A stretch of DNA of 64,000 nucleotides from Betaproteobacteria bacterium (GTDB taxonomy: Bacteria > Pseudomonadota > Gammaproteobacteria > Burkholderiales > Casimicrobiaceae), in NCBI GenBank assembly GCA_027492485.1, contig JAPUER010000053.1:106159-170158 (forward strand). The letters run 5' to 3'. The notes below the pieces were generated by a model. It was not told the DNA's origin. It worked only from the letters and a program-made list of their open reading frames with translations, and ran no database searches. Each line of letters starts with the position of its first letter. The stretch's first letter is position 1. The position numbers and the translations under genes were made by a program. This document shows, piece by piece, positions 12,506-30,011 of this stretch.

Positions 12506-12507
12506 TA

Positions 12508-12521
12508 GTTCGCATTAGAAC
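12508..12521. promoter_or_regulatory. Probable MarR operator
   Basis: GTTCGCATTAGAAC: 4-bp inverted arms with a 6-nt spacer, inside TTAGTTCG...GAACAATT. It nearly touches the marR start codon and lies between marR and dacB. It resembles TAGTTCGnnnGCGAACTA-type MarR sites known in proteobacteria. Assignment is by position and symmetry. Confidence 0.6.
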
Positions 12522-12571
12522 AATTTTTTCTGCGCGCGGCAAGCACGTTTCCGCGCGTCGATAATTGATCC

Positions 12572-14059: not shown

Positions 14060-14141
14060 TACCTTGTCACGCCGGTGCGGCAACGGAAGCGCGCCGCGGC
14101 GATGGTCGCCGGCGGCGCGTTGGCGAGCGGATCAAACTTCG

Positions 14142-14504
14142 CTAGTTGATCTCACGCTTCTCGGTCAGGCGCAGCCAGCCCTTGATGATGCGATAGACCC
14201 ACCAGATCCACACCACGCCGAGAATCAGGAAGCCCACCGCCACCAGCGCCAGCACGATGCCGATGCTGGTCCACAGCACGCCCCACCAGAAGGTGCGGAT
14301 CAGCCACGAGTAGTGGCTCGCCAGATAGGTGCCGACGGCGTCGTCGCGCTTGATATAGGCAACGATCAGCCCGGCGATCGCGAAGATGCCGGTCACCAGC
14401 CCGAGCGCATAGAGCGCATAGGTGATGTGGGTGATCTGGATGGTGGATTCGTTCGGCGTGGGGCCGGACGGCGAGGCATTCGCAATCGAGGGAACATCGG
14501 ACAT
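14142..14504 (-). CDS. Small membrane protein, DUF4870/COG3671-like
   Basis: A 120-residue protein with a polar N-terminus and three predicted membrane helices, including YALYALGLVTGIFAIAGLIV and IGIVLALVAVGFLILGVVWI, ending WWVYRIIKGWLRL. The pattern matches small proteobacterial membrane proteins of the DUF4870 type. The start ATG 14504 has GGGAG 9 nt upstream; a longer frame upstream has no such support. Function is not known. Confidence 0.8.
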   Translation of the reverse strand: MSDVPSIANASPSGPTPNESTIQITHITYALYALGLVTGIFAIAGLIVAYIKRDDAVGTYLASHYSWLIRTFWWGVLWTSIGIVLALVAVGFLILGVVWIWWVYRIIKGWLRLTEKREIN

Positions 14505-14678
14505 TTCTTTTTCTCCCGGTGTAGCAGTGTGGGTGTCGAGTCGCCGCCCAGGGTGCTGGCCGGCATCGCTTGTCGGCAATATCGCTATGATTTCCTCCAA
14601 TTGCAAGCGCCGCTGCTTGCCTGTGCGACAGGAGGCTGCGGCGAACGACAGAACGAACCAGGCCACGACGGAGGGCAG

Positions 14679-15011
14679 ATGTCAGCGCGCATACCGGACG
14701 AACAGGACGCCAACCGAATCGTCATCCTCGAAGGCTCGCCTCTGGGCACCCCGATGGCGAAGTCGTTTACCAACATCGATGAGGCGGAAGCCTTCGTGCT
14801 GACCCGCGTGCGTGCCAACGCCGCGGTCAACCTGCGCGAACGCATGGAAAAGGCAATTGCCGAGCGCATCGTCAGCGAGGACGGCATCGCCGCCGTGTCC
14901 GAAGTCATCGGCGGCAAGCTGGCGTTTTTGCGCGGGCTGGCGCAGGCCTATGCGCCGCGCGTCACCATCGTGCTGCGCCGCTGGGACGACGATGACGACG
15001 CGCGCCGCTAG
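14679..15011 (+). CDS. Small protein of unknown function
   Basis: I do not recognise this 110-residue protein. It is soluble and charged, with a helical middle (NLRERMEKAIAERIVSED) and an acidic run DDDDD near the end. The start ATG 14679 has a strong GGAGG 5 nt upstream. Its last 20 nt overlap the start of the S41-like lipoprotein gene, so the two are likely co-translated and may work together. A role in envelope biology is only a guess from that coupling. Confidence 0.7.
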   Translation: MSARIPDEQDANRIVILEGSPLGTPMAKSFTNIDEAEAFVLTRVRANAAVNLRERMEKAIAERIVSEDGIAAVSEVIGGKLAFLRGLAQAYAPRVTIVLRRWDDDDDARR

Positions 15012-16347
15012 CGCGCTGCTGCTCGTTTCGCTCGCCTTCGCCGGCTGCGCCAGCTTCGACCCGCACAACGTGCTCGGACGCATGATGAAGGCGACCGAGC
15101 CACTGCCCGAGCCGCTGCCCGCCGGCATGCGGGCCGCCGCACTGGACGCGGTGTGGCACACGATCAACGAGCGCTACTACCGCGCCGATCTGAACGGCGT
15201 CGACTGGCGTGCGGCGCGCGAGCGCTGGCAGCCGGAAATTCTGGGTGCAGCGAGCGACAACGAATTCTGGAAGTTGCTCGACAAAATGACCGGCGAGCTG
15301 GCGGATTCGCACACGCGCGTCGAATCGCCCACCATGTTGGAGCGGCAACGCATGATGCGCACGCCGTCGCTCGGTCTCAACTTGCGCCTGCTCGACGGGC
15401 GCCTGACTGTGCTCGGCGTACACCCCGAATCCGAAGCCTGGTGGGCGGGCGTTCGCCCAGGCATGTCGGTGGTGCGGATCGACGGCAAGGATGCGCTCGG
15501 GCAATGGCGCATATGGGCTGAGGATGCACGCAAGGCCTCTTCGGCGCAGGCGGCGCTGCGGCTGCCCAACCGCGCACTGAACGAACTGGCCGCGCAGCGC
15601 AGCTATCGCAAACACGCCACCAAGCCGACACTCGACGGTCTGGCGATGGCGTTCGAGCGCGACGACGGCACGCGCATCGAGACGAGCCTCAAGGCGTGGG
15701 GGCTGAGCACCGCGCCGAGCGTGAGCCATCGCACATTGCCCAGCGGCATTGGCTACATTCGCCTCACCTCGTTCAGCGAGGCGCTCAAGGCACCGCTGTT
15801 CGCCGCGCTGGCGACGCATGCGGACACACCGGCGCTGATTCTCGATCTGCGCGGCAATGGTGGTGGCTCGGGTGACATGGCCAACACGCTGGTCGGCGCA
15901 TTTTTGAAACATAAGACCGCGCTTGGCGAGGTGGTCACGCGCACCGGGCAGCCGGTGACGCTGGGCTTTGGCGCCTACAAGGTGATCGAACTCGAGCGCG
16001 TGGCGCCGGGCCGCGCTGACGCCTACGCCGGCAAGCTCGCCATCCTGATCGACCACGACAGCGCGAGCGCGTCCGAGCTGACCGCTGCAGCACTGCAATC
16101 GGTGGGCCGCGCCACCGTGGTGGGCGAGGTGTCCTGCGGCTGTCTGCTCGGTTTTCTGGGTTATGCCGCGCTGCCGGGCGGCGGCGCACTGGCGTACAGC
16201 GAGATCGGGTTCCGCACCGCCAAGGGCGACGTCGTCGAGGGCCGCGGCGTGCTGCCGGACATCGTCGTCGAACGCAACCTGCGCGACTTGCGCCTCGGCC
16301 GCGACCGGACACTGGAAGCCGCGCAGACAGAGTTGCTCAAACCTTAG
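14992..16347 (+). CDS. S41-family peptidase-like lipoprotein lacking the usual lysine
   Basis: A 451-residue protein with a lipobox (SLAFAGCAS), hence probably anchored in a membrane. It has a PDZ-like middle (GVHPESEAWWAGVRPGMSVV) and an S41 core: LILDLRGNGGGSG and DHDSASASELTAAALQSVGR (nucleophile Ser near residue 356). About 25 residues later, where tail-specific proteases carry lysine in TFGKG, the sequence is VSCGC. It may use another base or be non-catalytic. ATG 14992 was chosen because only that start gives a signal peptide. It overlaps the preceding gene, and palindromic element C starts right after its stop. Confidence 0.83.
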   Translation: MTTRAASALLLVSLAFAGCASFDPHNVLGRMMKATEPLPEPLPAGMRAAALDAVWHTINERYYRADLNGVDWRAARERWQPEILGAASDNEFWKLLDKMTGELADSHTRVESPTMLERQRMMRTPSLGLNLRLLDGRLTVLGVHPESEAWWAGVRPGMSVVRIDGKDALGQWRIWAEDARKASSAQAALRLPNRALNELAAQRSYRKHATKPTLDGLAMAFERDDGTRIETSLKAWGLSTAPSVSHRTLPSGIGYIRLTSFSEALKAPLFAALATHADTPALILDLRGNGGGSGDMANTLVGAFLKHKTALGEVVTRTGQPVTLGFGAYKVIELERVAPGRADAYAGKLAILIDHDSASASELTAAALQSVGRATVVGEVSCGCLLGFLGYAALPGGGALAYSEIGFRTAKGDVVEGRGVLPDIVVERNLRDLRLGRDRTLEAAQTELLKP

Positions 16348-16465
16348 CAGCTTTCCGATGTCATGCGCTAACCAGTGGTTGTTTCCGAGCGATTTAATAG
16401 ATAGTCGACTTTTAATAAATTCATGCTGTATCGACCGCCATTCGGTCGTTGCACGCAAAAAGCCG
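16348..16465. repeat. Palindromic element, copy C (118 bp)
   Basis: Starts CAGCTTTCCG on the base after the S41 stop codon, has its centre AGTC|GACT at 16403-16410 and ends AAAAAGCCG. Both arms are 59 nt. It is the most AT-rich and most diverged copy, but end and centre spacing match the others. The rest of the 198-nt gap before the aminotransferase shows nothing else. Confidence 0.75.
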
Positions 16466-16545
16466 ATGCATCGATAGCTGCCCGATGGCCGCAATGAATC
16501 AGGCTAGCATCGCCCAGAATCCCGCAACATCACGTCTCCGCCACC

Positions 16546-17733
16546 ATGCAATTCGCCGACCGCCTCCAGAACGTCGAAACCTCCGCCATCCGCGAGCTGT
16601 TCAAGCTGCTCGGCAAACCCGGCATCATCAGTTTTGCCGGCGGCTTCCCCGACCCGGCGCTGTTCGACGTCGAAGGCGTGCGCATGGCCACCGAGGCCGC
16701 GCTCGCCGACAACCCCGGCGCCGTGCTGCAATACGGCGCCACCGAAGGCTTCGGCCCGATGCGCGAGGCGGCGGCTGCCTTCATGCGCAACAAGGGCGCC
16801 AGCGTCACGCCCGAGCAATTGATCGTCACCACCGGCAGCCAGCAGGCGCTCGACCTGATCGGCAAGACCATGATCTCGCCCGGCGACAAAGTGATCGTGG
16901 AGGCGCCGACCTTCCTCGCAACCATCCAGTGCTTCAAGCTCTACGGCGCCGAGCTGATCACCGCGCCGATCGACGCCGACGGCGTGCAGGCCGACAAGCT
17001 CGAGGCACTGATCGACGAACACAAGCCGAAGTTCGTCTACCTGATCCCGACCTTCGGCAACCCGAGCGGCGCCATGCTCTCGCTGGAACGCCGCAAACGC
17101 ATCCTCGAAGTCGCCGCGCGCACCCAAACGCTGATTGTTGAGGACGACCCCTACGGCGAGCTTTACTTCGGCGCTCCGCCGCCACCGTCGATGCTGGCGC
17201 TGAGTGATGGCGTGCCCGGCAGCCGCGACTGGCTTGCGCACTGCGGCAGCATGAGCAAGATCCTGTCGCCGGGCCTGCGCGTCGGCTTCCTGATCGCGCC
17301 GCCGGAACTGCTCGCCAAAGCCACCATGTGCAAGCAGTTCAGCGACGCCCACACCAGCAACCTCACGCAGGCCACCGCCGCCAAATATCTCGGCCTCGGC
17401 CGCCTCGACGGCGCGCTCGCCAAAGTGCGCGCCACCTATGCCGAGCGCGCCCGCGTGATGGGCGAATGCCTGCGCAAGGAGTTGGGTGACGCGATCGAAT
17501 TCAACGCCCCGCACGGCGGCATGTTCGTCTGGGCCAGACTCACCGGCGCCGGCGGCAAGGAAAAGAACGCCAACGAATTCGCCAAACGCGCAATCGACAA
17601 GCTCGTCGCCTTTGTGCCGGGCGCACCGTTCTTTGCGCGCGATGCCGATGTGTCGACATTGCGGCTATCGTTCGCCACCGCCGATCTGGCGAAGATTGAA
17701 GAGGGGATTGCGCGGCTGGGGAAGGCGCTGTAA
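16546..17733 (+). CDS. PLP-dependent aminotransferase (2-aminoadipate transaminase-like)
   Basis: A 395-residue fold-type I aminotransferase. The PLP lysine lies in CGSMSKILSPGLRVGF. Other landmarks are TTGSQQALDLIGK, PTFGNPSG (Asn contacting PLP), EDDPYGEL and the C-terminal LRLSFA arginine. The sequence belongs to the LysN/KAT II group, which uses 2-aminoadipate, kynurenine or branched/aromatic amino acids; the exact substrate cannot be told. The ATG lies after element C with no clear operon partner. Confidence 0.88.
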   Translation: MQFADRLQNVETSAIRELFKLLGKPGIISFAGGFPDPALFDVEGVRMATEAALADNPGAVLQYGATEGFGPMREAAAAFMRNKGASVTPEQLIVTTGSQQALDLIGKTMISPGDKVIVEAPTFLATIQCFKLYGAELITAPIDADGVQADKLEALIDEHKPKFVYLIPTFGNPSGAMLSLERRKRILEVAARTQTLIVEDDPYGELYFGAPPPPSMLALSDGVPGSRDWLAHCGSMSKILSPGLRVGFLIAPPELLAKATMCKQFSDAHTSNLTQATAAKYLGLGRLDGALAKVRATYAERARVMGECLRKELGDAIEFNAPHGGMFVWARLTGAGGKEKNANEFAKRAIDKLVAFVPGAPFFARDADVSTLRLSFATADLAKIEEGIARLGKAL

Positions 17734-17752
17734 GACGACGCATTGAATTGCT

Positions 17753-17771
17753 CGTATAGTGATACCATACG
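17753..17771. promoter_or_regulatory. Probable HigA operator and -10 region of higBA
   Basis: CGTAT-AGTGATACC-ATACG is an inverted repeat ending 7 nt before the toxin start codon. It includes TATAGT, a reasonable -10 hexamer. A HigA-like antitoxin would be expected to bind such a site and repress its own operon. Confidence 0.5.
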
Positions 17772-17777
17772 TCGAAA

Positions 17778-18056
17778 ATGGTCGTCTCGTTCGCGCACAA
17801 AGGCCTGGAGCGTTACTTCCGGACTGGCAGTAAGTCTGGCATCCAGCCCACTCACGCCGCGCGACTGACGCTTATTCTTTCCTTGCTCGACGTGGCGAAG
17901 TCTGCCGACGACCTGAATGTTCCCGGCTTCGGATTGCATCCACTGAAGGGTGACATGAAGGGCTACTTCGCGGTCAAAGTGAGCGGCAACTGGCGACTCA
18001 TCTTCAAGCAAAAGGGCGACGACATGGAACTCGTCGACTATCTGGACTACCACTGA
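17778..18056 (+). CDS. higB: HigB-like toxin (RelE superfamily)
   Basis: A 92-residue ribosome-dependent mRNA interferase. Family landmarks are in order: FAHKGLERYF near the start, HPLKGDMKGYFAVKVSGNWR in the middle, and the C-terminal VDYLDYH. The toxin gene comes before its antitoxin, the order typical of higBA. The spacing to higA is 18 nt. Confidence 0.9.
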   Translation: MVVSFAHKGLERYFRTGSKSGIQPTHAARLTLILSLLDVAKSADDLNVPGFGLHPLKGDMKGYFAVKVSGNWRLIFKQKGDDMELVDYLDYH

Positions 18057-18074
18057 ATTTGACGGAGGCACGCG

Positions 18075-18371
18075 ATGTCGATGCACAACCCCGGTCACCC
18101 CGGCGAACTATTGCGCACCTGGATCGAAGGTGCAAATTTGACCGTGACGCAACTCGCTGATCACATTGGCGTAACCCGTGCAACTTTGTCCCGCATCATC
18201 AACGGCCATGCGGGTGTGACCGCAGAGATGGACTTGCGCCTGCATCAGGCGCTTGGTACGCGCGAAGGTTTGTGGCTTGACTTGCAGAAACAACGGGATT
18301 TGTGGGTTGCCAAGCAAGCGAAGACGCCGCGCATTAAGAGGCTAGTGATGGCTGAAACTGTGGTGGCCTGA
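18075..18371 (+). CDS. higA: HigA-like antitoxin (XRE-family HTH)
   Basis: A 98-residue protein with an HTH: LTVTQLADHIGVTRATLSRI followed by INGHAGVT. The N-terminal HPGELLRTW motif is typical of HigA/VapI antitoxins. It should neutralise HigB and repress the operon. GGAGGC lies upstream of the ATG. Confidence 0.9.
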   Translation: MSMHNPGHPGELLRTWIEGANLTVTQLADHIGVTRATLSRIINGHAGVTAEMDLRLHQALGTREGLWLDLQKQRDLWVAKQAKTPRIKRLVMAETVVA

Positions 18372-18397
18372 AAATCGCGGGACCGGCGTGAATCAAT

Positions 18398-18456
18398 CTG
18401 CTAACCAATTCCTGGAAGGCGGATTGCGTTCACATCTGAATCGAGCCGGTTAGCAG
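18398..18456. repeat. Inverted repeat between the two TA modules
   Basis: CTGCTAACC (18398-18406) is mirrored perfectly by GGTTAGCAG (18448-18456) with a 41-nt loop, in the gap between convergent higA and the RelE-like toxin. No T-run follows, so it is not a clear terminator. Confidence 0.5.
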
Positions 18457-18482
18457 CCGAAAGCAGTACGAAGGCGTCTTAC

Positions 18483-18764
18483 TCACCGCCTCGACGCCAC
18501 CTCATACATGGCATTCCGCTCGCGCGTTCCAACAGCGACGACGATCACAATGACTTCGGCGTCGCGAACTTCGTAGACGAGACGGTACCCGACGCTGCGC
18601 AGTTTGATCTTGTAGCGGTCTTTGCTGTCGCTCAGCTTGGCGGCGGGTACTCGGGGATTGTTGAGACGTTCGCTGAGCTTGGCTTTGAATTGCTCGCGCG
18701 TGTGATTGTCCAGTTTGCGCCATTCCTTGAGCGCGTCCTCAAGAAAACCTAGTTCGTAGCGCAT
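18483..18764 (-). CDS. relE: RelE/ParE-family toxin
   Basis: A 93-residue protein with the RelE layout: YELGFLEDALKEWRKLD at the start, then RYKIKLRSVGYRLVYEV (basic residues on the RNA-cleaving face) and a C-terminal VVAVGTRERNAMY. It lies 15 nt downstream of an antitoxin gene of the Phd/RelB type. Cleavage of mRNA at the ribosome is the family activity. Confidence 0.88.
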   Translation of the reverse strand: MRYELGFLEDALKEWRKLDNHTREQFKAKLSERLNNPRVPAAKLSDSKDRYKIKLRSVGYRLVYEVRDAEVIVIVVAVGTRERNAMYEVASRR

Positions 18765-18779
18765 GCGCCGTCCGTTTGT

Positions 18780-19016
18780 TTACAGGTCGTCGAGCGCTAC
18801 TTTTACGACGCGCTGCCCCTTACGCGTGTCGGCAATCGCGTTCAACTCGGCGTCTTCGAGCCGTTCAAGCATCACGGCGTAGGCCTTGGCAGGCACACAA
18901 TAGAACGCCGGCTCATTGCGATTGAGGATCGCAACCGGAAAGCCTTCAAATGCGCGATCAAAGCGGGCAACCCTCGTAGCCGCGATGAGTGACTGACGCC
19001 CACCGGCGCCCGCCAT
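18780..19016 (-). CDS. relB: Phd/RelB-type antitoxin
   Basis: A 78-residue protein whose FPVAILNRNEPAFYCVPAKA core is the hallmark of antitoxins paired with RelE-like toxins. The tail (KVALDDL) matches the toxin-binding end of these proteins. The first 12 or so residues are less typical; the start is taken as ATG 19016. It precedes its toxin, the usual order for this type, and is divergent from the M50 protease gene. Confidence 0.83.
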   Translation of the reverse strand: MAGAGGRQSLIAATRVARFDRAFEGFPVAILNRNEPAFYCVPAKAYAVMLERLEDAELNAIADTRKGQRVVKVALDDL

Positions 19017-19190
19017 GTTGGCGACCGTAAAAAAATAGTGGTAGTGCTTGCCAAGCGGACCGCCCAGCCGCCCGCAGTTCGCCTGGGTGCTGACCGTTCG
19101 CGATTCGACGGGCATACTGCGAACGAAACGATGCGGGCGGGTGGCGGGTTGCGCCGCGCGCAGCACGAACCATTCACAGATACCGCGACA

Positions 19191-19922
19191 ATGACCAAAC
19201 TCCTGCTGCTGCTTTTCTCCGGTCTCAAGTTCGGCAAGATCTTCACCACCGCCGGCACCATGCTGATCTCGGTGGTGGCCTATGCCTTCATCTTCGGCTG
19301 GGGCTACGCCGTTGGTTTCGTGGCGTTGATCTTCGTGCATGAGATGGGGCATTACTTCGCGGCACGACATCGTGGTCTCGACGTCGGTGCGCCGACCTTC
19401 ATTCCCTTCGTTGGCGCCTGGGTGATGCTGAAGGATCTGCCGCACAACGCCGAGACCGAGGCGTTCGTGGGGCTTGGCGGTCCGCTGATCGGCACCGTCG
19501 GCGCGCTGGTGGTGTACTTTCTTGCGCGCAGCTACGACAGCACGCTGCTACTGGCGATTTCGTATTCGGGCTTCTTTCTCAATCTGTTCAACATGATTCC
19601 GCTGTCGCCGTTCGATGGCGGGCGCATCACGGCGGTGCTGTCGCCGCGCATCTGGTTCCTAGGTGTGCCGGTGCTGCTGGGCTTGTTCGTCTGGCGGCCG
19701 AGCCCGATGCTGATCCTGATCGCGCTGATGGCGGCGCCGCAGCTCTGGAAAGCCTGGCAGTACCGCAGCGACAGCGAGGAGGCGCAGACCTACTACGCCG
19801 TCTCCGGCGCCACGCGGCTGCAATACGCGACCTACTACATCGTGCTGCTTGCTTTCCTCGCAGTCATGACACACGATGTGCACGAGATGGTGCAGGCAGC
19901 GCGCGCGGCAAAAGGCATCTGA
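19191..19922 (+). CDS. M50 (site-2 protease-like) membrane metalloprotease
   Basis: A 243-residue membrane protein with HEMGH (zinc ligands and catalytic Glu) in an early helix and a second metal motif in NMIPLSPFDGGR. It lacks the PDZ domain of RseP, so it resembles the compact M50 group found in many bacteria whose substrates are unknown. ATG 19191 gives a sensible hydrophobic start (MTKLLLLLFSGLKFGK). Upstream extension of the frame has no support. Confidence 0.85.
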   Translation: MTKLLLLLFSGLKFGKIFTTAGTMLISVVAYAFIFGWGYAVGFVALIFVHEMGHYFAARHRGLDVGAPTFIPFVGAWVMLKDLPHNAETEAFVGLGGPLIGTVGALVVYFLARSYDSTLLLAISYSGFFLNLFNMIPLSPFDGGRITAVLSPRIWFLGVPVLLGLFVWRPSPMLILIALMAAPQLWKAWQYRSDSEEAQTYYAVSGATRLQYATYYIVLLAFLAVMTHDVHEMVQAARAAKGI

Positions 19923-19976
19923 CCACGCCCGCGCTGCGTTTGCCGCCGCGTCGTCGCTGCACTATGCTCGCAACCG

Positions 19977-20285
19977 ATGCAACGCGTTGCCCATGCTCCC
20001 AATCTCGCCATCGCCACGCTGTGGCTCGATGTGCTGACCAGCGACGGCATCGCGGCGACAGTGCAGCGGCAATACCTCGGCGGCGGCATTGGCGAACTGC
20101 CGCCGCATCAATGCCTGCCCGAAATCTGGGTAAGCGACGACGCCCAGGCGGCGCGCGCGAAGGGGCTGTTGCGCGATTTGCAAAACCTGCCGCAACGGCG
20201 CTGGGCCTGCCGCGCCTGTCACGAAATCGTCGAAGGCGGCTTCGAGTCCTGCTGGAACTGCGGCGCCCCGATGCCGCTGCCGTGA
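19977..20285 (+). CDS. DUF2007 domain protein with zinc ribbon
   Basis: A 102-residue protein. The N-terminal half (LWLDVLTSDGIAATVQRQYL through LPEIWVSDD) matches DUF2007, a PII-like signal domain. The C-terminal half is a two-CxxC zinc ribbon (CRACHE and CWNCGAP). Role unknown. It converges with the exonuclease gene with a 1-nt gap. Confidence 0.82.
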   Translation: MQRVAHAPNLAIATLWLDVLTSDGIAATVQRQYLGGGIGELPPHQCLPEIWVSDDAQAARAKGLLRDLQNLPQRRWACRACHEIVEGGFESCWNCGAPMPLP

Positions 20286-20286
20286 A

Positions 20287-20934
20287 TCAGTCCGGGTCGT
20301 CGAGGCCGGTGATCGGCCAGTGCGCCTGCGCGCCCGCCGCACCGGCGTTGAGCGCGTCGAACACCGCGATGGCGCCGTAGGCATCGTTGGCCGCGTAGCT
20401 CTGCTGCGCGATGGACAGCGTGGGTAGCGACCAGTTCGATGTGCTCATCCGTTTCGATTTGCTGAACTGCCGCCCGAGCACGATGGCGACCGCGGTCTTG
20501 ACGCCCACTTCATTGCGGTAGCCCTGCTCGCGAAACCACGCAGTCAGATCGAGCACCGCGCGCAGCGGCGTACCCAGCCGGGCACGGATGTGGCTGCGGT
20601 CGGACTTCAGGCCGAAGCCGACCTTCACCGTTGTGCGGCTGCCGAGCAGCGTGGCGATGGCCGTGCGCGATGCCGGGTTGTTCACCTGAAACAGCCATGC
20701 CCGATCCGCAGTGGCGAACTGCACGACGTGGGGCCCGGTCGATGCCTCGCCTTTCAGGAAGGTTGGCTTCGATTCGGTGTCGAAACCAACATAGGCGTGT
20801 CGCGCAATCTCGGTCGCTGCCTGTGCGCATTCGTCGGCCGTTGCCGGCACCTGAATGCATGCCGGTGCAAGCGGCGCGAACGGCGGCAGTGTCGCGATGT
20901 GCTCGGCGGTGGGCGGGAAGGGGCGCGGGCGCAT
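20287..20934 (-). CDS. 3'-5' exonuclease (DnaQ/RNase D superfamily)
   Basis: A 215-residue DEDDy exonuclease domain. Exo I is VGFDTESKP (D and E), Exo II lies in VGFGLKSDRSHI, and Exo III is QQSYAANDAYGA (Tyr-x3-Asp). It is a single-domain protein without the HRDC of RNase D, like small WRN-exonuclease-type proteins. The substrate (RNA or DNA) cannot be told. Confidence 0.85.
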   Translation of the reverse strand: MRPRPFPPTAEHIATLPPFAPLAPACIQVPATADECAQAATEIARHAYVGFDTESKPTFLKGEASTGPHVVQFATADRAWLFQVNNPASRTAIATLLGSRTTVKVGFGLKSDRSHIRARLGTPLRAVLDLTAWFREQGYRNEVGVKTAVAIVLGRQFSKSKRMSTSNWSLPTLSIAQQSYAANDAYGAIAVFDALNAGAAGAQAHWPITGLDDPD

Positions 20935-20955
20935 GATGATCGGCCGGGCGCTGCG

Positions 20956-22848
20956 CTAAGGCACCAGCAATTGCAGGTATGCCTCGATGTCCGGCGCGCT
21001 GCTGCGCGCCGCGCCGCCGGCCACGGCACCTGCGACCAGCGCGCCGCCGCGCAGGCCGAGCAGGTAACGCAGGATCAGCACGCCATCGGTGCCGAAGCGA
21101 TATTGCCCGTCGCCGTCAATGTCGAGCGCCGGGCGGATGCTGTCGAGCCGCGCCTTCACCGCTGCCGGATCGATGAGGGTGGCATCGACGGAAAGCGTGT
21201 CGGCGATCAGCGCGTTGCCAGTGAAACCCGCCAGATAGCGGGCGACCAGCAGGCCGTCGGTGGCGGCGTTGTAGATATTTGTTGGAGTGCTTTTGTCGAC
21301 GTTGAGCGTGGCACCCGGTGCGCCGTCATAGGCGGCCTTCACGTCAATGCGGCCCCAGCCGTAGGTGTTGTTGGGCACCGTGGTGGCAAGGTTGCCGCAA
21401 TTCACGGCTGCTGAGCGCCGCACGGCGGTCCGCATCAACGCCCGTTTGATTGCGTCGGGATCGCCAATCAAGTCCGGCCGTGCGGACATGAGCAGCGCGG
21501 CGGCTCCTGCGACATGCGGTCCAGCCATCGAGGTGCCGCTCGACGAACCGTAGCTGGTGTCGGATGTCCGGGTACTGGAGCGGACCGACACCCCGGGCGC
21601 CGAGACATCCGGTTTCAGGCGGCCACTGCCGTCAACCGTGACCGGACCACGGCTCGAGAAGGAAGCGATGGCGTCGCTGGCGCTGGCTCCGTCGGTGGCG
21701 CCAACCGACAACACGGCCTCGTAGATTGCTGCCGGGTCGAGCACCGTTGAGCATGCCGCCCCAGCGTTGCCCGCGCTCACCACCACCAGGATGCCGGCCG
21801 CCCGTACGCTCTCGACCACCGACTTCAATACGTTGACGTCGGTGCAGCCCTCCGATGGCGGACATCCCCACGAATTGTTGATGACGTGCGGCGCTTTCGA
21901 CGGATCCGGGTTGGCGTTGGCGAGGTCGGTGGGCGCAATGAACCACTGGAAGCATTCGGCGTAGGTGGCGGGCGTGCCGTTGCCCTGATCCATGTTGCGG
22001 CAGCCGATCCATCTAGCGCCCGGCGCGACGCCCACTTGATTGCTGCCGCCGTCGTCGCCAACCATGGTGCCCATCGTGTGGGTGCCATGCCCCTGGTCGT
22101 CACACGGTACAACCGAGTTCGCACCACAGGAACCGCCGCCGGAGTGAATGGCGTCGTGCCAGTGGTAGTTGTGATTGGCGGCGATGCCATCCCAGCCGCG
22201 ATACTTGCCTTTGAGTGCGCTATGGGTCCACCGGTAGCCGGTGTCCTGACCGCCGACGACAATGCCTTGACCGGTGAACCCGGCAGTCCACATTTCGCTG
22301 GCGCGAACCCTGGTCACGCCCTGTTCGACAGCAGCGACGGCGGTCGGTGATTCGGCACGCTTCCGGGCCAGGAGCTCTTGCGCCGGCTGCTTCAGCTTCA
22401 CCGTCGGATTGGCCGACAACCGCGCCACGTCAGCTCGTGCCGCCAGCGCCTCTGCCGTCAACGCGTCCGCCTGCACCAGAATCATGTTGGTGACCCAGAA
22501 CGACTGATGCAGCACGCCACGCGACGTGAGCCAGCTGCGAAGGTCAGCTTGTGTGGTCTCGGCGTGTTTGCGCAGCGTCTCGTACACCCAGCGACCGCGC
22601 TCGGTCTTGTCGGCGATGTCTGCCGCTCCGGAAAGATCGGCCTGCGTCGGCATCTGCACCAGCACCGGCACCGTCGTTTTGTCGAGCAACTGATCGACTA
22701 CCCAGCCGTCGGCTTTGCCGCGCAGTTGCGGCGATGCAGTGAAGGTAGCGGCCAGCAGCGGTGCGGCAGCCGCCGTTGCCAGCAGCGAGCCGAGCAGGCG
22801 CGCGATGCCGGCACGGCACTGCAATCGGATCAATGGCGTATTCAACAT
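20956..22848 (-). CDS. Secreted subtilisin-like serine protease (S8) with dockerin-like tail
   Basis: A 630-residue preproprotease. The signal peptide ends near AAAAPLLAATF. An I9-like propeptide covers about residues 35-160. The catalytic triad is present: Asp in GGQDTGYRW (about 199), His in GHGTHTMGT (about 251), Ser in GTSMAGPHVAGA (about 437). The C-terminal ~110 residues hold two dockerin-like units (TDGLLVARYLAGFTG and LDIDGDGQYRFGTDGVLILR), related to the end of the delta-60 protein at 7931. I chose ATG 22848 because it alone begins a signal peptide. Confidence 0.92.
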   Translation of the reverse strand: MLNTPLIRLQCRAGIARLLGSLLATAAAAPLLAATFTASPQLRGKADGWVVDQLLDKTTVPVLVQMPTQADLSGAADIADKTERGRWVYETLRKHAETTQADLRSWLTSRGVLHQSFWVTNMILVQADALTAEALAARADVARLSANPTVKLKQPAQELLARKRAESPTAVAAVEQGVTRVRASEMWTAGFTGQGIVVGGQDTGYRWTHSALKGKYRGWDGIAANHNYHWHDAIHSGGGSCGANSVVPCDDQGHGTHTMGTMVGDDGGSNQVGVAPGARWIGCRNMDQGNGTPATYAECFQWFIAPTDLANANPDPSKAPHVINNSWGCPPSEGCTDVNVLKSVVESVRAAGILVVVSAGNAGAACSTVLDPAAIYEAVLSVGATDGASASDAIASFSSRGPVTVDGSGRLKPDVSAPGVSVRSSTRTSDTSYGSSSGTSMAGPHVAGAAALLMSARPDLIGDPDAIKRALMRTAVRRSAAVNCGNLATTVPNNTYGWGRIDVKAAYDGAPGATLNVDKSTPTNIYNAATDGLLVARYLAGFTGNALIADTLSVDATLIDPAAVKARLDSIRPALDIDGDGQYRFGTDGVLILRYLLGLRGGALVAGAVAGGAARSSAPDIEAYLQLLVP

Positions 22849-22912
22849 GGGAGCGACGGCTGTGTGCAATGCGTTCGACGCGCGGGTGCGGTGTGAGGTT
22901 GGCGGAAAGAAA

Positions 22913-23674
22913 TCAGCTGCGAACGTCGGCGACCGGTTCATCGCCAAAGTCAGGCCGCTCAAGATAGCGCAACACGCGAGCCGCCGCGTCGTCGATGCTC
23001 AGTAATTGCCCGCTGCGGTGGTACTCCACAAAACGTGCGTGATCGGGAAATGCGTCGGCGTCGGTACCGCGCAGGTGCGTCTGCATGTCGGTGTCGATGA
23101 TGCCGGGGGCCAGCGAGCAGATTCTGGCGCCGTTCGGATGCGCCGCTTCCTCCAGCGCCACGCAGCGCGAGAAGTGGTCCATGCCCGCCTTGGCGGCGCT
23201 GTAGAGCGATTGCGACGCCATCGCGCGGCGGCCGTTGCCGGACGAAATGTTGAGCACGCGGCGCCTGCCCGGCCATCTTGCCGTGCATTGCAGGAACGCA
23301 GCCGTCAACTGCATCGGCGCTTCGAGCCCGACCCGAAGCACCAGCGGCACGTCGGCGGCGCGGGTGTCGGCAAGCGGTGCAATGGCCGGCAGCACCGCCG
23401 CGTTGTTGATCAGCGTGGCGGTGGCGAACGCCTGGCCGTCGGCCCCGTGCAGCCACTTCCGCAGCCGCGCGGCCGCGACCAGGCCGCCGTCGGCAAAGTC
23501 CTGCGACCATTGTTCGAGCGAACACGCCGGTGTGGCGGCGGCAAGGGCCGCGAGGTCGTGGTTGCCGTTGCGCGCGATGCAAACCAGCGAGTGGCCGGGT
23601 TGCACCAGTTGTCGCGCCATGCCGAGCCCAAGTCCGCGCGAGGCGCCGGTGATGATGTAGAGGTGATGCCGCAT
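22913..23674 (-). CDS. Short-chain dehydrogenase/reductase
   Basis: A 253-residue SDR with the NADP-binding TGASRGLGLGMA, NNAAVLP, catalytic Ser in NISSGNGRR and YSAAK. The pattern resembles benzil/sepiapterin reductases, but the substrate is unknown. It lies head to tail with the subtilase gene, 64 nt upstream of that gene's start. Confidence 0.87.
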   Translation of the reverse strand: MRHHLYIITGASRGLGLGMARQLVQPGHSLVCIARNGNHDLAALAAATPACSLEQWSQDFADGGLVAAARLRKWLHGADGQAFATATLINNAAVLPAIAPLADTRAADVPLVLRVGLEAPMQLTAAFLQCTARWPGRRRVLNISSGNGRRAMASQSLYSAAKAGMDHFSRCVALEEAAHPNGARICSLAPGIIDTDMQTHLRGTDADAFPDHARFVEYHRSGQLLSIDDAAARVLRYLERPDFGDEPVADVRS

Positions 23675-23797
23675 CGCAGAATGGTAGCGTCAGCCGCCGG
23701 CCACCGGGTTGGTAACCGGCTACCGATAAGAGTTTGCACTGGAATTCCGCGCGCCACAATGCACAGCCATCGCACCTCATCTCTCCCGGAGCCGGCA

Positions 23798-24051
23798 ATG
23801 GAATTCCAATGCGCTCACCGCTGGGTGTTTAGCAGTTGGGGCGGAACGCCTGCCGAGCAGGAAGACGCGCTCGCATCGGCGGTCGGTCACGAGGTGACCA
23901 TCCGCGTGACGCACTGCGGCATGTGCCACTCCGATCTGCACCTGCAGGCCGGTGGCTTCGGCATGGGCGGCGGCCGCTGGCGTCGGTCAATCGGGCGCTG
24001 GACGATCTCGCGCATGGCCGCGTGGTGGGCCGGCTAGTATTGCAGCCGTAG
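23798..24051 (+). pseudogene. Zinc alcohol dehydrogenase remnant with internal deletion
   Basis: The first ~55 codons encode the N-terminus of a zinc ADH, including VTHCGMCHSDLHLQAGGFGMG with the catalytic-zinc cysteine. After about 23970 the frame shifts, and a second frame ends with VNRALDDLAHGRVVGRLVLQ, the classic C-terminus of the same family. The ~260 middle residues are missing. Two ends of one gene joined across a deletion explain this best. Confidence 0.8.
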
Positions 24052-24731
24052 TGTTTCGGCATTGGCCGCCACTGCGGTCGGCAAATACGGCGTTGGGCAT
24101 TTCGGCGAGGCGCAATTTTCTCGGTGCATTGCTGGCGGCATCGCTGCTACCGGCCTGCGGGCGCAAGCGCGTCGTCGGTCGCCGCATCGCGGCGGGCGCC
24201 ACCGTGCTGGCGCTTGGCGATTCGCTCACCTTCGGCACCGGCGCTGCGCCGGAGAGCAGCTATCCGAGCGTGCTGGCGCGGCTGACCGGCTGGAACGTGA
24301 TCAATGCCGGCGTTCCCGGCGACACCTCGGCGCAGGAGCTGGCCCGCTTGCCGGCGCTGATGCAGGAACATTCGCCGCAGCTCGTGCTGGTCAGCATCGG
24401 TGGCAACGATTTTCTGCGCCGGATGAACGACGGTGACACCCGCGCCAACATTCGCCGCATCTGCGAGCAAGCGCAGGCCGGCGGCGCCCAGGTGCTGCTG
24501 ATCGCGGTGCCGGCGTTGAGCGCGGCGGCGCTGCTCGCCGGTTCGCTGTCCGATCACCCGCTGTACGAAGAAATCGCCGATTCGCTGCGCCTGCCGCTGC
24601 ATGCGAAAGGCTGGTCGACGGTGCTCGCCAATGCCGCGCTGCGCTCCGACCAGATTCACTCCAACGCGCAGGGCTACGAACTGTTTGCCCGTGGCCTGGC
24701 CGATGCGGCGCGGACGGCGCAGTTGCTGTGA
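24051..24731 (+). CDS. tesA: TesA-like SGNH esterase/lysophospholipase, probable lipoprotein
   Basis: An SGNH hydrolase with block I GDSLTFGTGA (nucleophile Ser), block II NAGVPGDTS, block III IGGNDFLR and block V DQIHSNAQGY (Asp and His). The N-terminus has an ARRNFLGALLAASLLPAC segment, which looks like a twin-arginine-type signal joined to a lipobox. There is no ATG; GTG 24051 or TTG 24093 could start it. The GTG overlaps the ADH remnant stop. Substrate range (thioester, ester or lysolipid) is unknown. Confidence 0.82.
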   Translation: MFRHWPPLRSANTALGISARRNFLGALLAASLLPACGRKRVVGRRIAAGATVLALGDSLTFGTGAAPESSYPSVLARLTGWNVINAGVPGDTSAQELARLPALMQEHSPQLVLVSIGGNDFLRRMNDGDTRANIRRICEQAQAGGAQVLLIAVPALSAAALLAGSLSDHPLYEEIADSLRLPLHAKGWSTVLANAALRSDQIHSNAQGYELFARGLADAARTAQLL

Positions 24732-24779
24732 ATGGGACGCGCGTGCGTTGTGTTTGCGGGAAGCACGGAACAAGGCCCC

Positions 24780-24856
24780 GTTCACCCTGAACGCAGTGAA
24801 GGGTTCGACGATTGGATGCGAGTTTCAAACCCTTCGCCTTCGGCTCAGGGCGAACG
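24780..24856. repeat. Inverted repeat after tesA
   Basis: CGTTCACCCTGAACGCAGTG followed by AAGGGTTCGA (24780-24809) is mirrored by 24822-24856 (AACCCTTCGCCTTCGGCTCA then GGGCGAACGG). It is of the common CCCTGAGC...GAAGGG repeat class seen in many proteobacteria, and fills the convergent gap between tesA and the Mrr-like gene. Confidence 0.75.
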
Positions 24857-24881
24857 GTTCACGCTTATGTTCAGCGCTTCC

Positions 24882-25514
24882 CTAACCGGGCCGTTTGCCT
24901 GCATCGCCAGCCGTGCCGATCGTCGCCTGCGTCAGCAGCGCCAGTTCGCTGCCGGTGACGATGCGGATGCTGTTCTTTGCCGCGAATTGGCGGGCGGCAT
25001 CGCTCGGCGCGTTGAGCGCGATGTAGAGGCCCTGACCGGCGTCGTCGCCAGCGGCCGAGGTCAGGGCCGCCGCCAGTTCGCGCAGCGGTTCGACGCCGTG
25101 GCTGGCGGCCTTCCAGCGTTGGTGGCTGAGCAGCGCGCTGCGCCCGCCCTTGCTGACGATCCAGTCGGCGCCCTTGCCGCTGAACCGCGCCACGCTGTAG
25201 CCGTCGGCTACATACGCCCGTTCGAGAGTGCCGACGAAATCGCGTCCGGACAGCGCGGCGAGGCGTTGCAGCGTGGCCTCGACCTTGGCCGGGCTGGGCG
25301 CCTGCCATTGCCGCCACGCCGCGATCATGCCGATCACGGCGAACGGCAGCCCGGACACTGCGCCAACGGCGGCATAGCGGGCCGGGAACAGGCTGTAACA
25401 GGCAAACCCCACCACCGCCGCCACCGCGAAACTGATCCACCACGGCGAGCGCAGCAGCACTGCGAACAGCGAGCGGTCGGACATCTTGGGAAGCGAGAAC
25501 TGCACAGCGGGCAT
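24882..25514 (-). CDS. Membrane protein with Mrr-like restriction endonuclease domain
   Basis: A 210-residue protein. Two hydrophobic segments (residues ~18-60, including WWISFAVAAVVGFACYSLF) precede a domain with GRDFVGTLERAYVADGYSV, GADWIVSKGG and LLSHQRWKA, the layout of the Mrr_cat nuclease fold. The usual Q-x-K is read here as SHQRWK. Such membrane-tethered Mrr-like proteins are common and mostly unstudied. ATG 25514 is preferred over an upstream extension. Confidence 0.75.
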   Translation of the reverse strand: MPAVQFSLPKMSDRSLFAVLLRSPWWISFAVAAVVGFACYSLFPARYAAVGAVSGLPFAVIGMIAAWRQWQAPSPAKVEATLQRLAALSGRDFVGTLERAYVADGYSVARFSGKGADWIVSKGGRSALLSHQRWKAASHGVEPLRELAAALTSAAGDDAGQGLYIALNAPSDAARQFAAKNSIRIVTGSELALLTQATIGTAGDAGKRPG

Positions 25515-25583
25515 CCGGTGGTGGGTGGGGAGCGTGTTTGTAGCACGCGGCAGGGGCGTGGCCGGGTCGGGTCGGCTGACTAT

Positions 25584-25701
25584 TGGCTTTTTGCTGAAAG
25601 CGCCATTCAAATTGGGCTAAGAACGCGATTTGACGAGAAGTCGACTTTAGGCACTATCTGCCTTCGAGCCCTTATTGGATGGCGTTCATGCCAGAAAGCC
25701 A
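25584..25701. repeat. Palindromic element, copy D (118 bp)
   Basis: The arms run 25584-25642 and 25643-25701, centred on AAGTC|GACTT. Both arms start TGGCTTT and share CGCCAT(T/C)CAA and GGGCT at the same offsets; about 34 of 59 positions agree between arms. The element ends 25 nt upstream of the groESL -35 box. Confidence 0.88.
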
Positions 25702-25726
25702 TTACCTCTGTTTCCCCGGTTCCGGG

Positions 25727-25754
25727 TTGAAAGTGGGCTATCGCTACCTATAAT
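25727..25754 (+). promoter_or_regulatory. Sigma-70 type promoter of groESL
   Basis: TTGAAA (25727-25732), a 16-nt spacer and a perfect TATAAT (25749-25754). The CIRCE operator begins on the last base of the -10 box, so HrcA would block initiation here. Confidence 0.88.
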
Positions 25755-25780
25755 TAGCACTCATCAGGGGCGAGTGCTAA
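25754..25780. promoter_or_regulatory. CIRCE operator (HrcA site)
   Basis: TTAGCACTC-N9-GAGTGCTAA, an exact match to the CIRCE consensus. It shows that groESL is under HrcA repression and heat induction; hrcA itself is not in the window. Confidence 0.97.
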
Positions 25781-25914
25781 CAATCGGAATTTCCGCAGTT
25801 AGCGCTCGCTACGGTTGCAACCTTCATGCTGGTTGCAAATCGTCCGCCAAGGCCCGATGCGGCTGGCGGATGCCTCCGTTTTCAAAACCGAGAATTGTTC
25901 AAGGAGAACTCTTC

Positions 25915-26211
25915 ATGTCACTGAAACTTCGCCCCCTGCACGATCGCGTGATCGTCAAGCGCCTCGAAGAAGAGCGCAAAACCGCCTCCGGCATCGTGAT
26001 CCCGGACACCGCCACCGAGAAGCCCGATCAGGGTGAAGTGCTCGCCGTCGGCCCCGGCAAGCGCGACGACAGCGGCAAGCAAAACGCGCCGGACGTGAAA
26101 GTCGGCGACAAGGTGCTGTTCGGCAAGTACGCCGGGCAGACGGTCAAGGTCGATGGCGATGAACTCTTGGTTATGCGCGAAGAGGACATCATGGCGGTAG
26201 TCACCAAGTAA
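25915..26211 (+). CDS. groS: Co-chaperonin GroES
   Basis: A 98-residue Gro[22 protein letters not shown] and the mobile loop that binds GroEL are clear, followed by [19 protein letters not shown] and the EDIMAVV end. AAGGAG lies about 9 nt before the ATG at 25915. First gene of the CIRCE-controlled groES-groEL operon. Confidence 0.98.
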
Positions 26212-26253
26212 CGCAGACGTCCAAGAGCGCACAGCGCGATTGGCAACGACTGC

Positions 26254-26280
26254 GTCATCCCGGCGGAGGCCGGGATCCAG
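26254..26280. repeat. REP-type palindrome between groES and groEL
   Basis: GTCATCCCGGCGGAGGCCGG followed by GATCCAG: CCCGG/CCGGG arms. It belongs to the same GTCATnCCGGC...GCCGGnATCCAG class as the repeats around the GIY-YIG gene at 52538. It may affect the groES/groEL mRNA ratio. Confidence 0.8.
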
Positions 26281-26307
26281 TGCGTAGACCACGCGCAGCG
26301 CATTTGA

Positions 26308-27981
<1,674 letters not shown>

Positions 27982-28013
27982 GAACGCGAACATAGCGAGC
28001 GTCTGCCGCGTTG

Positions 28014-28053
28014 CTTTGCGGCTCGTGTACGTTAAGTACACGTCGCCACAAAG
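28014..28053. repeat. Long hairpin downstream of groEL
   Basis: CTTTGCGGCTCGTGTAC pairs with GTACACGTCGCCACAAAG around a GTTAA loop, with few mismatches. No T-run follows, so it may protect the groESL mRNA 3' end or be another repeat; the real terminator lies further on. Confidence 0.7.
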
Positions 28054-28113
28054 CGCCTTGCATCCATCTCGTTCTGTTCGGTTCTGGTTTGTTCCAGCGA
28101 TCCGTACCAAAAC

Positions 28114-28142
28114 AAAGGCACCTTCGGGTGCCTTTTGTTTTC
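28114..28142 (+). terminator. Terminator of groESL
   Basis: AAAGGCACC-TTCG-GGTGCCTTT followed by TGTTTT. A 9-bp stem with a stable UUCG loop and a T-rich tail. The 246 nt from here to the next gene show no further feature. Confidence 0.92.
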
Positions 28143-28388
28143 CCGTCGTCAGCCAAACATAGCCCTGGCCGGGCTAAACTGGGGCGTACTTCCGCCTCCC
28201 GCCGACGCTGCCTCATTCCTTGTCGCTTCGCTCATTGTTGGTGTCGCTCGCGGCGACCTGCGGCTTGCTGCCGGCGGCGTTTTCTGTTCCGGTCCGTGTT
28301 GGCAATTACCCCCGCCAACCACGGCGGCCGCCGGTGGCAGTACGAAACGCAACAAGCAAGCCGTTTACCCACAACGTACACTCGATAG

Positions 28389-30011
28389 ATGCGCAGGCAG
28401 AAGTCACCCCCTCGTCGGCATGCCGAGACAGAGCTCGCGGCGCTGCGGGCCGCGCCGCAGTTGCTCAGCGTCGCCGCGCTGGAGCGTGGCGAGGCCTTGC
28501 TGACGGCGTATCACGGCGAATTGTCGGTCGACGAGACCCTCTATGTGCTGCGTCTCTGTGCGTCCGGCTGTCAGGCCGCCGGTCGCTGGCTCGAAGGCTT
28601 GCAGTTCGCCCGTCGCGGGATCGATCTGGCGACGCGTGAGCACAAGAGTCGCGACAAGATTCCGCTGCTCGCCATTAGCGGCAATATTCACCTGTTCCTG
28701 CACAACTTCCACCTGGCGATCCGCGCCCTGCGCGAGGCAATCGCCATTGCCGAGCAGGAGCAGTTGATCGACGAGCAGGCGAAACTGCTGCAAAGCCTCG
28801 GGCCGGTCTATGCCCAACTCGATCTGCACGAAACAGCGCTGGCGTTGTTTCAGCGGGCGCGCACGATGGCGACCGGCAAACCGCTGGCCGCGGTGCGCAT
28901 TGCTGCGCTCAACAACATGGCGCGCGAATACTGCGCACTGGGCCAATTGGCGGAGGCGGTTGCCGGCATCGATGAGGCGATGGCCGTTGCGCAGACGCCG
29001 GGCGCGCACGAATGGATGCCCAATTTGCTGCACACCCGCGCCGAGATTGCGGCCCGCCAGGGCCGCTTCGTGGATGCGTTGGCCGATGCCGACGCGGCCG
29101 CGGCACAGTTGCGCAGCCGCCGCAACGTGCATTCCCTGCTGCGGGTGCTGGTCGATAGCGCGTGCTGGCTGGCAGCGTTGCAGCGCTACGACGAGGCTCG
29201 CGCCCGCCTCGACGAAGCGGCAATGCTGCCCGCCGATCCCTCGCTGCACACCTTGCGCGAAGGCGCTGCGCTCGCCCGCCTGCAGCTCGAGTACGACAGC
29301 GGCGACGCCGGCCGTGCGATGGCCGCGTTGACCGATTTCCTCGCCGCCCGCGCCGATGCCCGGCAGGTGGAGCTGGCAAGCCAGCGCATCGCGGTGCAGT
29401 TCGTCGAGGAGGTGGAGCGCACCGAAGCGCGCGGTCGCCGCGAGTCGGCTGCCGTCAACGAACTGACCTTGCGCCTGATCGAAACCCAGGCCGAGGCGCA
29501 GAAGATGGCGCGGCAGGTAGCGCGCGACCCGTTGACCGGCGCGCTCAATCGTGCCGCCTTCGAGGCGGCAATGGGAAAGGTCGCCGGCGGTCCGCAGCAA
29601 CCGGTCGCGCTGATCATGATCGATGTCGACGACTTCCGGGTCATCAACACCGAGCGTGGTCATCTGGCTGGCGACGCGGTGCTGGAGGGCGTGGTCGAGC
29701 GGTTGCGGCAGGCATTGCGCGTCAACGATTTGATGGGACGTGCCGGCGATGACGAATTCCTCGTACTGTGTCCCGGCGTTGGTCCGCGCATCGCCGCGGC
29801 GATTGCCGCACGGGTACTGGCGAAAGTGGCTGAAAATCCTATCGTTCACGATGGCAACGCGATTGCGGCAACGGTCAGTGTTGGCGTTGCCTGCGCGCAC
29901 AGCAAGGCGCTGGGCTTGATGCCCTATCTGCTGAAGCGCGTCGAGGCGGCATTGCGGCGGGCCAAACAGGCCGGCAAGAACCGCGCGGTGACGGTGCGGG
30001 TCAACGACTGA
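28389..30011 (+). CDS. TPR-GGDEF protein with altered GGDEF motif
   Basis: A 540-residue cytoplasmic protein. Residues ~40-330 are tetratricopeptide-like helical repeats, then a short coiled coil (ELTLRLIETQAEAQKMARQV) leads into a GGDEF domain starting DPLTGALNRAAFE. The signature is GDDEF (in GRAGDDEFLVL) instead of GGDEF, while the I-site RxxD (RVND) stands five residues before it. The Gly-to-Asp change may weaken or abolish diguanylate cyclase activity, leaving a c-di-GMP- or GTP-sensing role; not proven. No EAL domain. Confidence 0.88.
   Translation: MRRQKSPPRRHAETELAALRAAPQLLSVAALERGEALLTAYHGELSVDETLYVLRLCASGCQAAGRWLEGLQFARRGIDLATREHKSRDKIPLLAISGNIHLFLHNFHLAIRALREAIAIAEQEQLIDEQAKLLQSLGPVYAQLDLHETALALFQRARTMATGKPLAAVRIAALNNMAREYCALGQLAEAVAGIDEAMAVAQTPGAHEWMPNLLHTRAEIAARQGRFVDALADADAAAAQLRSRRNVHSLLRVLVDSACWLAALQRYDEARARLDEAAMLPADPSLHTLREGAALARLQLEYDSGDAGRAMAALTDFLAARADARQVELASQRIAVQFVEEVERTEARGRRESAAVNELTLRLIETQAEAQKMARQVARDPLTGALNRAAFEAAMGKVAGGPQQPVALIMIDVDDFRVINTERGHLAGDAVLEGVVERLRQALRVNDLMGRAGDDEFLVLCPGVGPRIAAAIAARVLAKVAENPIVHDGNAIAATVSVGVACAHSKALGLMPYLLKRVEAALRRAKQAGKNRAVTVRVND

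Follow-up and report, generated by a model that had tools for sequence, protein, structure and literature searches.

An element of 118 bp lies between an Mrr-type gene and groES (Cpn10), upstream of the latter, at positions 25584–25701 of a 64,000-nucleotide stretch of contig JAPUER010000053.1 (termed here the window), from an uncultured member of the Burkholderiales. It belongs to a family of symmetric intergenic elements that may be the sites of a putative chromosome-organizing protein. A sequence-only reading of the window had proposed six copies of such an element. All six were confirmed at their positions, and a symmetric profile of the element matched exactly these 6 copies (52–114 bits). 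Copy 4, beside groES, is centered at 25642/25643 and scored 114.3 bits; its arms agree at 34/59 positions. The others are copy 1 (1265–1382, center 1323/1324, 82.0 bits, arm agreement 37/58), copy 2 (10731–10848, center 10789/10790, 52.4 bits, 23/59), copy 3 (16348–16465, center 16406/16407, 60.9 bits, 30/59), copy 5 (43540–43657, center 43598/43599, 91.2 bits, 22/59), and copy 6 (54007–54124, center 54065/54066, 64.9 bits, 32/59). No strand is assigned to any copy. The arm agreements counted earlier for the copies at 25584 and 1266 were exact. The copy ends were fixed, as had been proposed, except that the first copy is better framed at 1265–1382 and the arm ends are not invariably CAGCTTTTCG or CGGCTTTTCG. 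Copy 2 is overlapped by terminator-like hairpins on both strands (10750–10830).

The profile was seeded with 27 sites centered on AAGTCGACTT and converged at once to 42 copies in 456 kb, all scoring at least 43.7 bits. In 578.5 kb of the source genome it found 52 copies, with scores of 43.7–118.7 bits; the sole other positive peak scored 8.4 bits, and the reversed sequence gave at most 3.5 bits. Two Markov-resampled sets contained nothing above 8 bits. Ten of the 52 copies lay outside the training set: nine on C53 beyond the window, and a tenth on C16 (180023) at a stretch edge. The center AAGTCGACTT occurred 130 times in the 4.12-Mb genome (reversed control, 0) and was exact in 33/52 copies. 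The element density of ~1 per 11 kb corresponds to ~370 per genome, as extrapolated from the 578.5 kb. Because there was no tail of decaying copies and the score gap was clean, the family is a real and sharply defined class. The closest two of 42 copies shared at most 80/118 positions. The proposal that the family is new was upheld in that the profile search of the genome gave many more than six copies and an Rfam scan of the window at gathering threshold left the element unmatched. The only match, elsewhere in the window, was a cobalamin riboswitch (RF00174, 61433–61682, 93.9 bits). The available portions of a mostly non-subscription literature (including PMC6379681, PMC12393610, PMC2229807, and PMC3116915) contained no recognized family with such length, placement, and dialect behavior, and ERIC and REP/REPIN palindromes and dispersed protein sites are already known kinds.

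The arms share one layout with fixed spacing. From the outer end inward, positions -58 to -52 are AGCTTTT and positions -45 to -43 a block of AAA; then come the inner dyad, whose center is at -34, and a block of A/T at -15 to -12, before the central AAGTC/GACTT (slash at the center) is reached. The consensus ends CAGCTTTT and AAAAGCTG, derived from 41/42 copies, form terminal inverted repeats, and the A+T profile is symmetric over 118–122 bp. In copy 4, the left inner dyad is at 25599–25619 (positions -44 to -24), the central dyad GTCGAC at 25640–25645 (-3 to +3), and the right inner dyad at 25666–25686 (+24 to +44). Within the center, TC/GA varies least among species. The dyad at -34.0 was the strongest arm dyad in 8/8 species sets despite different letters, narrowly so in the source genome and in congener G005. 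Information per position ranged from 2.5 bits to near 0, with a total of ~77 bits per site that is somewhat inflated at the center, on which the profile had been seeded. The fixed length, symmetry, center, and ends noticed in the six copies were borne out across copies by the profile, and the suggested selection on structure or binding agrees with this position-specific constraint at fixed spacing.

The symmetry exists at the consensus level only. Among 42 copies, arm identity was 27.8 of 59 positions within copies vs. 26.7 between copies (p=0.057). In larger sets of 52 and 58 copies, the values were 27.7 vs. 27.1 and 27.8 vs. 27.5, and 313 and 514 of 2000 permutations were as high. Belonging to the same copy thus makes two arms hardly more similar, and the arms are not kept as pairing strands. 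The description of the element as palindromic therefore applies to its consensus; pairing arms and arm-to-arm covariation were not found in the copies. Within the inner dyad, covariation by copy had z values of -0.1 to 1.7 in seven species sets, and in G007 15/400 permutations were as high. A mixed set (G013 plus JANXNO and CALDYQ copies) gave z 3.1, vs. 1.4 when restricted to its SZAS-69 copies; in the same comparison as the mixed set, G007 gave 2.1. In a mixed-species alignment the inner dyad paired in 55.6% of cells; sliding it gave 28.6–45.0% and shuffling 51.5%. Differences between species are enough to produce such a level. RNAalifold found no structure on the arms. In a hairpin, covariation would be expected within individual copies; the weak or absent covariation fits, instead, the site of a homodimer with drifted specificity. 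A long cruciform or RNA hairpin was rejected on the basis of the arm identity, close to the between-copy level, and the empty RNAalifold result. Small hairpins within the arms, although slightly enriched, were rejected as well, given the weak covariation of paired positions in the seven species sets. Dyads with so little copy-level covariation suggest a dimeric protein of drifting specificity.

When profiles were refitted for each species, the layout was the same and the letters were different. The inner dyad reads roughly CCCAT..ATTGGG in the source genome, CGACCG..CGGTCG in G012, GCC.TAT..ATAaGGC in G011, CCAATT..AATTGG in G007, and GCCC..GGGC in G009. The center AAGTC/GACTT becomes about TTTTC/GAAAA in G011. 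In a leave-one-out comparison, the model of a copy's own species was the best for 215/253 copies (source genome 32/52, G005 46/58, G013 46/47, G012 12/13, G015 15/18, G011 31/32, G007 33/33). Because the -34.0 dyad persists with new letters in all eight sets, both of its halves changed together between species.

A generic model matched 16/17 genomes examined from the genus and 0/47 from six further genera of the same family. Of 200 sampled genomes from 108 genera of the order, five matched, all in this genus. A strict pattern searched over 84,980 species genomes gave 50 loci: 35 in JAFEDD, 9 in JANXNO, 5 in CALDYQ, and 1 by chance; the 49 non-chance loci come from three Burkholderiales/Proteobacteria metagenome-assembled genomes. 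The source-genome profile also matched 48/50 of these loci. L033 (JALGYY, -54 bits) was excluded as chance, and L053 (CALDYQ) scored 7.6 with the source-genome profile and 31 with that of G009. Viral contigs had 0 exact matches to the pattern GGGC..center..GCCC, a weak negative since this pattern fits just 7/42 copies of the source genome. In each genome the model searches scored a limited number of top candidates (no more than 91, 150, 57, or 18, depending on the search); match counts therefore saturate and do not measure copy number. Filters were stricter in the searches over 40 genomes. Individual loci were viewed only in part for the matches in G002, G010, and G014, and none for G003; the G010 loci were chance-like. 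The G007 and G011 stretches had been picked for containing matches, and their element densities are biased. As judged from these searches, the element occurs in only one genus of uncultured Burkholderiales.

In all 110 copies (52 in the source genome, 58 in G005), the center lay outside predicted genes or at most 60 bp within one, genes having been called with a simple codon-usage finder (coding fraction 0.86). Among gaps that were at least 100 bp or held an element, the element occupied 17/35 convergent gaps in the source genome and 21/43 in G005; 24/132 and 27/172 tandem gaps; and 11/60 and 10/73 divergent gaps. Copies were evenly spaced. The pooled normalized spacing had a standard deviation of 0.52, vs. 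0.93 under random choice of intergenic gaps; one of 93 spacings was below 3 kb, vs. 18–19 expected; and 0/4000 random choices were as even. The evenness held also when gap orientation was matched and only gaps of at least 118 bp were used. By stretch, p was 0.0026 for C16 and 0.029 for C53 of the source genome, and <0.0002 and 0.0012 for two G005 stretches.

The element was conserved in place. Between the source genome and G005, whose orthologues are ~90% identical, 15/15 adjacent-gene gaps with an element held one in both genomes, and 164/164 gaps without it held none. When six congeners were pooled and gaps of similar size compared, the element was kept in 25/27 and lost in 2/27 gap-by-species observations, and was found in 0/332 observations of free gaps. 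Starting from the 50 strict-pattern loci (35 of them from SZAS-69, i.e., G013), conserved gaps had an element in both genomes in 7 cases, in neither in 20, and in only one in 0. Copy 1, whose neighbors are CorC/HlyC-type and YbeY-type genes by Pfam, has orthologous copies in G005 and G012. The gap orthologous to that of copy 3 holds an element in G005 and G013, and an element also adjoins the orthologue of the left neighboring gene in G006 and G015. Copy 5, and copy 6 in its convergent gap, each have an orthologous copy in G005. An element adjoins groES, as copy 4 does, in nine other members of the genus (G005, G012, G013, G015, G004, G001, G008, G011, and G007); the one in G007 scored weakly (20; 32 after refit). 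At this locus, the Mrr-type, restriction endonuclease-like gene (24882–25514) adjoins copy 4 and is near an element in many genus members; it evolves faster (50–83% identity) than the neighboring groES (92–100%). A strong sigma-70-like promoter (25727–25754) lies between copy 4 and groES. Next to it, within 25727–25780, is an inverted repeat, TTAGCACTC/GAGTGCTAA, which we take to be CIRCE-like.

Conservation was concentrated in the constrained positions. The 15 orthologous element pairs of the source genome and G005 agreed at 52–83 of 118 positions, and this agreement tracked information content (Spearman 0.79), with 76% identity in high-information and 35% in low-information columns. Low-information columns were 35% identical between orthologous vs. 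28% between non-orthologous copies; fourfold sites were 60.6% identical (chance 37.7%). Aligned identity was 67% for elements, 74% for element flanks, 75% for free gaps, and 61% for unrelated partners. Hypermutating spacers are not claimed; one-base shifts within the arms depress fixed-register identity counts. In gaps enlarged by at least 1 kb, the element of the source genome had no counterpart in 5/13 cases, and a free gap had gained an element in 1/10. The segments that carry the source-genome copies at C16 120623 and 131810 are absent from G012 and G013 (that at 131810 also from G011 and G007), and no element was found there. A second, unrelated repeat of ~105 bp occurs at L011:2719–2824 (C16 ~122719–122824 of the source genome). 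It has many copies in G007 and G011, roughly 74–87% identical over most of their length.

The class itself, the even distribution of its copies between genes, their persistence in place, the dialects, and the dyads with low covariation are computed results; from them we infer that a protein reads the element and that the role of the element is to organize the chromosome. The 118-bp element would be the site of a putative genus-specific DNA-binding protein, at least dimeric, that would occupy several dyads: most strongly those at -34 and +34, together with the center and, more weakly, dyads at ~-49/+49. With an extrapolated ~370 copies, or one per ~11 kb, lying between genes with a preference for convergent ends, these sites would mark the chromosome near-regularly, most likely as domain boundaries or nucleoid anchoring points. 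A site of this kind would explain the selection, the symmetry, the dialects, the even spacing, and the conservation in place. We give it about an even chance of being correct. For mobility, hairpin function, termination, and gyrase wrapping, at least one tested expectation failed in each case.

Several observations weigh against this proposal. No binding protein was found: ParB_N domains, tyrosine recombinases, and Y1 transposases had no presence pattern that matched the element; no gene-content profile was run. ParB_N gave a single hit in 10/16 bearers, and a ParB paralogue was rejected as the reader because its pattern does not track the element. A site carries ~77 bits, far above the ~13 bits that would suffice to position 370 sites within 4.1 Mb; simple site recognition is therefore not the whole account. 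The change of hundreds of sites in step is left unexplained. G016, of the same genus, had no match. Positions turn over (2/27 similar-size gaps, 5/13 and 1/10 enlarged gaps, and the C16 copies above). The source genome and G005 share ancestry, and their spacing tests are thus not independent. There are also weak hairpin signals: apart from the 15/400 result in G007, an enrichment test of the inner dyad gave z -2.0 for the top and -2.5 for the bottom strand in the source genome (-0.1 and -2.8 in other genomes), and arm stems were longer than permuted ones (p 0.01 and 0/300).

Element gaps are hot spots of DNA gain. An insert of at least 1 kb in at least one congener was found at 11/20 element gaps of the source genome vs. 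4/60 element-free gaps of at least 118 bp (p=1.3e-5). Element gaps yielded 13 observations of such inserts: four with an element at both ends, four with one element, and five with none. The four doubly bounded inserts are 2.5–12 kb long, one in G012 (C15; L206, L207) and three in G015 (L172, L220–L222), and contain ordinary-looking operons, judging from predicted genes. Their gene-to-element distances resemble those of the single element in the source genome (161/57 vs. 159/72, 128/273 vs. 81/289, 75/77 vs. 61/77, and 980/76 vs. 974/170). Furthermore, a 63-kb segment is inverted between the source genome and G005. Both breakpoints, one of them at copy 2, are in element gaps, and an element is present at all four junctions. 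The pattern hints at recombination at the elements; insertion-tolerant boundaries fit it too.

The element could accordingly be read as a recombination site, at which DNA would be broken and rejoined at the central dyad while the outer dyads would bind accessory subunits, so that bounded blocks would be inverted, gained, or lost. The insert excess, the four inserts bounded on both sides, and the inversion favor this account. However, operon boundaries may tolerate insertions anyway; nine of the 13 inserts had one element or none; a third synteny break against G005 (C16 near 114.55 kb; L010:14510–14620) is element-free; and the arms of the two genomes are too diverged to place the crossover of the inversion. 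The presence of tyrosine recombinases does not follow that of the element. PF00589 hits, compared in 10 genomes of which seven are bearers, total three in bearer G009 and two in non-bearer G016, and no bearer-only recombinase was found among them. The two strong hits in each of G009 and G016 are presumably XerC and XerD; XerC/XerD themselves remain compatible with the account. A tyrosine recombinase common to the seven searched bearers, beyond this presumed Xer pair, is unlikely because the third G009 hit is of a longer-match kind that had no hit above 100 bits in the source genome or G013. We consider a recombination site rather unlikely. An extension of this idea, in which the elements would split the chromosome into ~11-kb blocks and serve as joints for their inversion, insertion, and removal, forming a modular system with species dialects and a putative reader, is unlikely. 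Two side observations were made here. A 31-bp stretch at the third synteny break recurs elsewhere in G005. The longer-match PF00589 hits (L246 and L250–L254, in G009, G012, G017, G005, G011, and G007) match over ~570–600 nt vs. ~500–540 nt in most of the strongest hits; by length and score we assume that they are perhaps integron integrases.

The origin of the element is a separate question. It may descend from an ancient palindromic repeat of MITE (miniature inverted-repeat transposable element) or REP type that spread in the ancestor of the genus, became immobile, and was retained in a host role. The sharing of ~77 bits by many copies, which is beyond what independent origin easily gives, and the abrupt appearance of the family in one genus are in accord with such descent, as are its inverted-repeat ends, typical of MITE/REP-type repeats according to a review. 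Traces of transposition were nevertheless wanting. When 42 copies were tested for target duplications over 1152 combinations of length and offset, the highest was only 0.43 base of 9 above the between-copy level, and no exact repeat was found; no near-identical copies were present among the 42; and the 332 similar-size free-gap observations had no element. PF01797 (Y1, RAYT) had a hit in 15/16 bearers and none in bearer G009 or non-bearer G016, and most other genera were positive. A transposon was rejected for lack of a clear target duplication and of a matching presence pattern of the Y1 transposase. The steady recent mobility that had been offered as an alternative to selection was likewise not supported by these results, and the copies mostly stay at orthologous gaps. 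The ancient-repeat account, which we regard as quite doubtful, concerns origin and is compatible with a protein site.

The element might instead be a strong site for DNA gyrase (or topoisomerase IV) that absorbs transcription supercoils. In its length and symmetry it resembles the E. coli gyrase motif, which is 130 bp long and symmetric, with a 10.75-bp G+C period in its flanks (PMC6379681). The preference for convergent gaps and the even spacing would suit supercoil absorption, and a 4-base stagger at TCGA would fit gyrase cleavage. However, flank A+T periods of 7.25–7.5 bp were the strongest in four species sets and 10.75 was weaker (a further analysis used 86 of the 99 copies of the flank-period listing), and a universal gyrase accords poorly with a genus-restricted element whose letters change. 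A gyrase site was rejected because the main flank period differs from the 10.75 bp of the motif; in G007 the flank power at 10.5 was close behind the main period (5.0 vs. 5.9). This account is very unlikely.

Least probable is action as RNA, as a bidirectional terminator or a stabilizer of mRNA 3′ ends: elements are often near gene ends, a few arms have terminator-like hairpins conserved in G005 (10814–10830 in the right arm of copy 2, and C53 82692 and C16 127150 by eye), and hairpins are slightly enriched (inner dyad z -2.0 to -2.8 in three of four tests; longer stems), but per-copy covariation was not clear between the arms or within the inner dyad, RNAalifold on the arms was empty, only one of the three elements in window positions 10000–29999 contains terminator-like stems and another is abutted by one (22 hits vs. 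18.2 shuffled), 11/52 copies of the source genome are in divergent gaps, and an RNA role leaves the even spacing unaccounted for.

If the element is a chromosome-organizing protein site, such sites would be legible in sequence as long, near-regular elements that are kept in place and changed in step by species. Sequence could then be used to test whether the domains of bacterial chromosomes are bounded at fixed positions under selection, and how a DNA-binding protein can shift its specificity together with its hundreds of sites.

The element was compared with four known systems. Like ERIC/MITE-type palindromes, it is an imperfect palindrome within 100–170 bp, intergenic, and present in many copies; unlike them, it has no clear target duplication or pairing arms, and it is mostly kept at orthologous gaps, evenly spaced, and divided into dialects. 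REP/BIME/REPIN sequences with RAYT are similarly extragenic, form symmetric doublets, and prefer gene 3′ ends, whereas the element has a fixed length of 118 bp, shows no clear hairpin covariation, does not require the Y1 transposase (G009), and is not randomly spread. Strong gyrase sites share with it a long symmetric layout with alternating A+T and G+C blocks, and differ from it in main period, strict base readout, genus restriction, and dialects. The proposed protein site has its counterpart in matS/MatP, NBS/Noc, and parS/ParB, in which many symmetric chromosome-wide sites are read by a dimeric protein. The matS, NBS, and parS sites are 13–16 bp long and regional. In contrast, the element is 118 bp long, contains several dyads, is near-regular over the sampled contigs, and has no accompanying pattern of a ParB paralogue.
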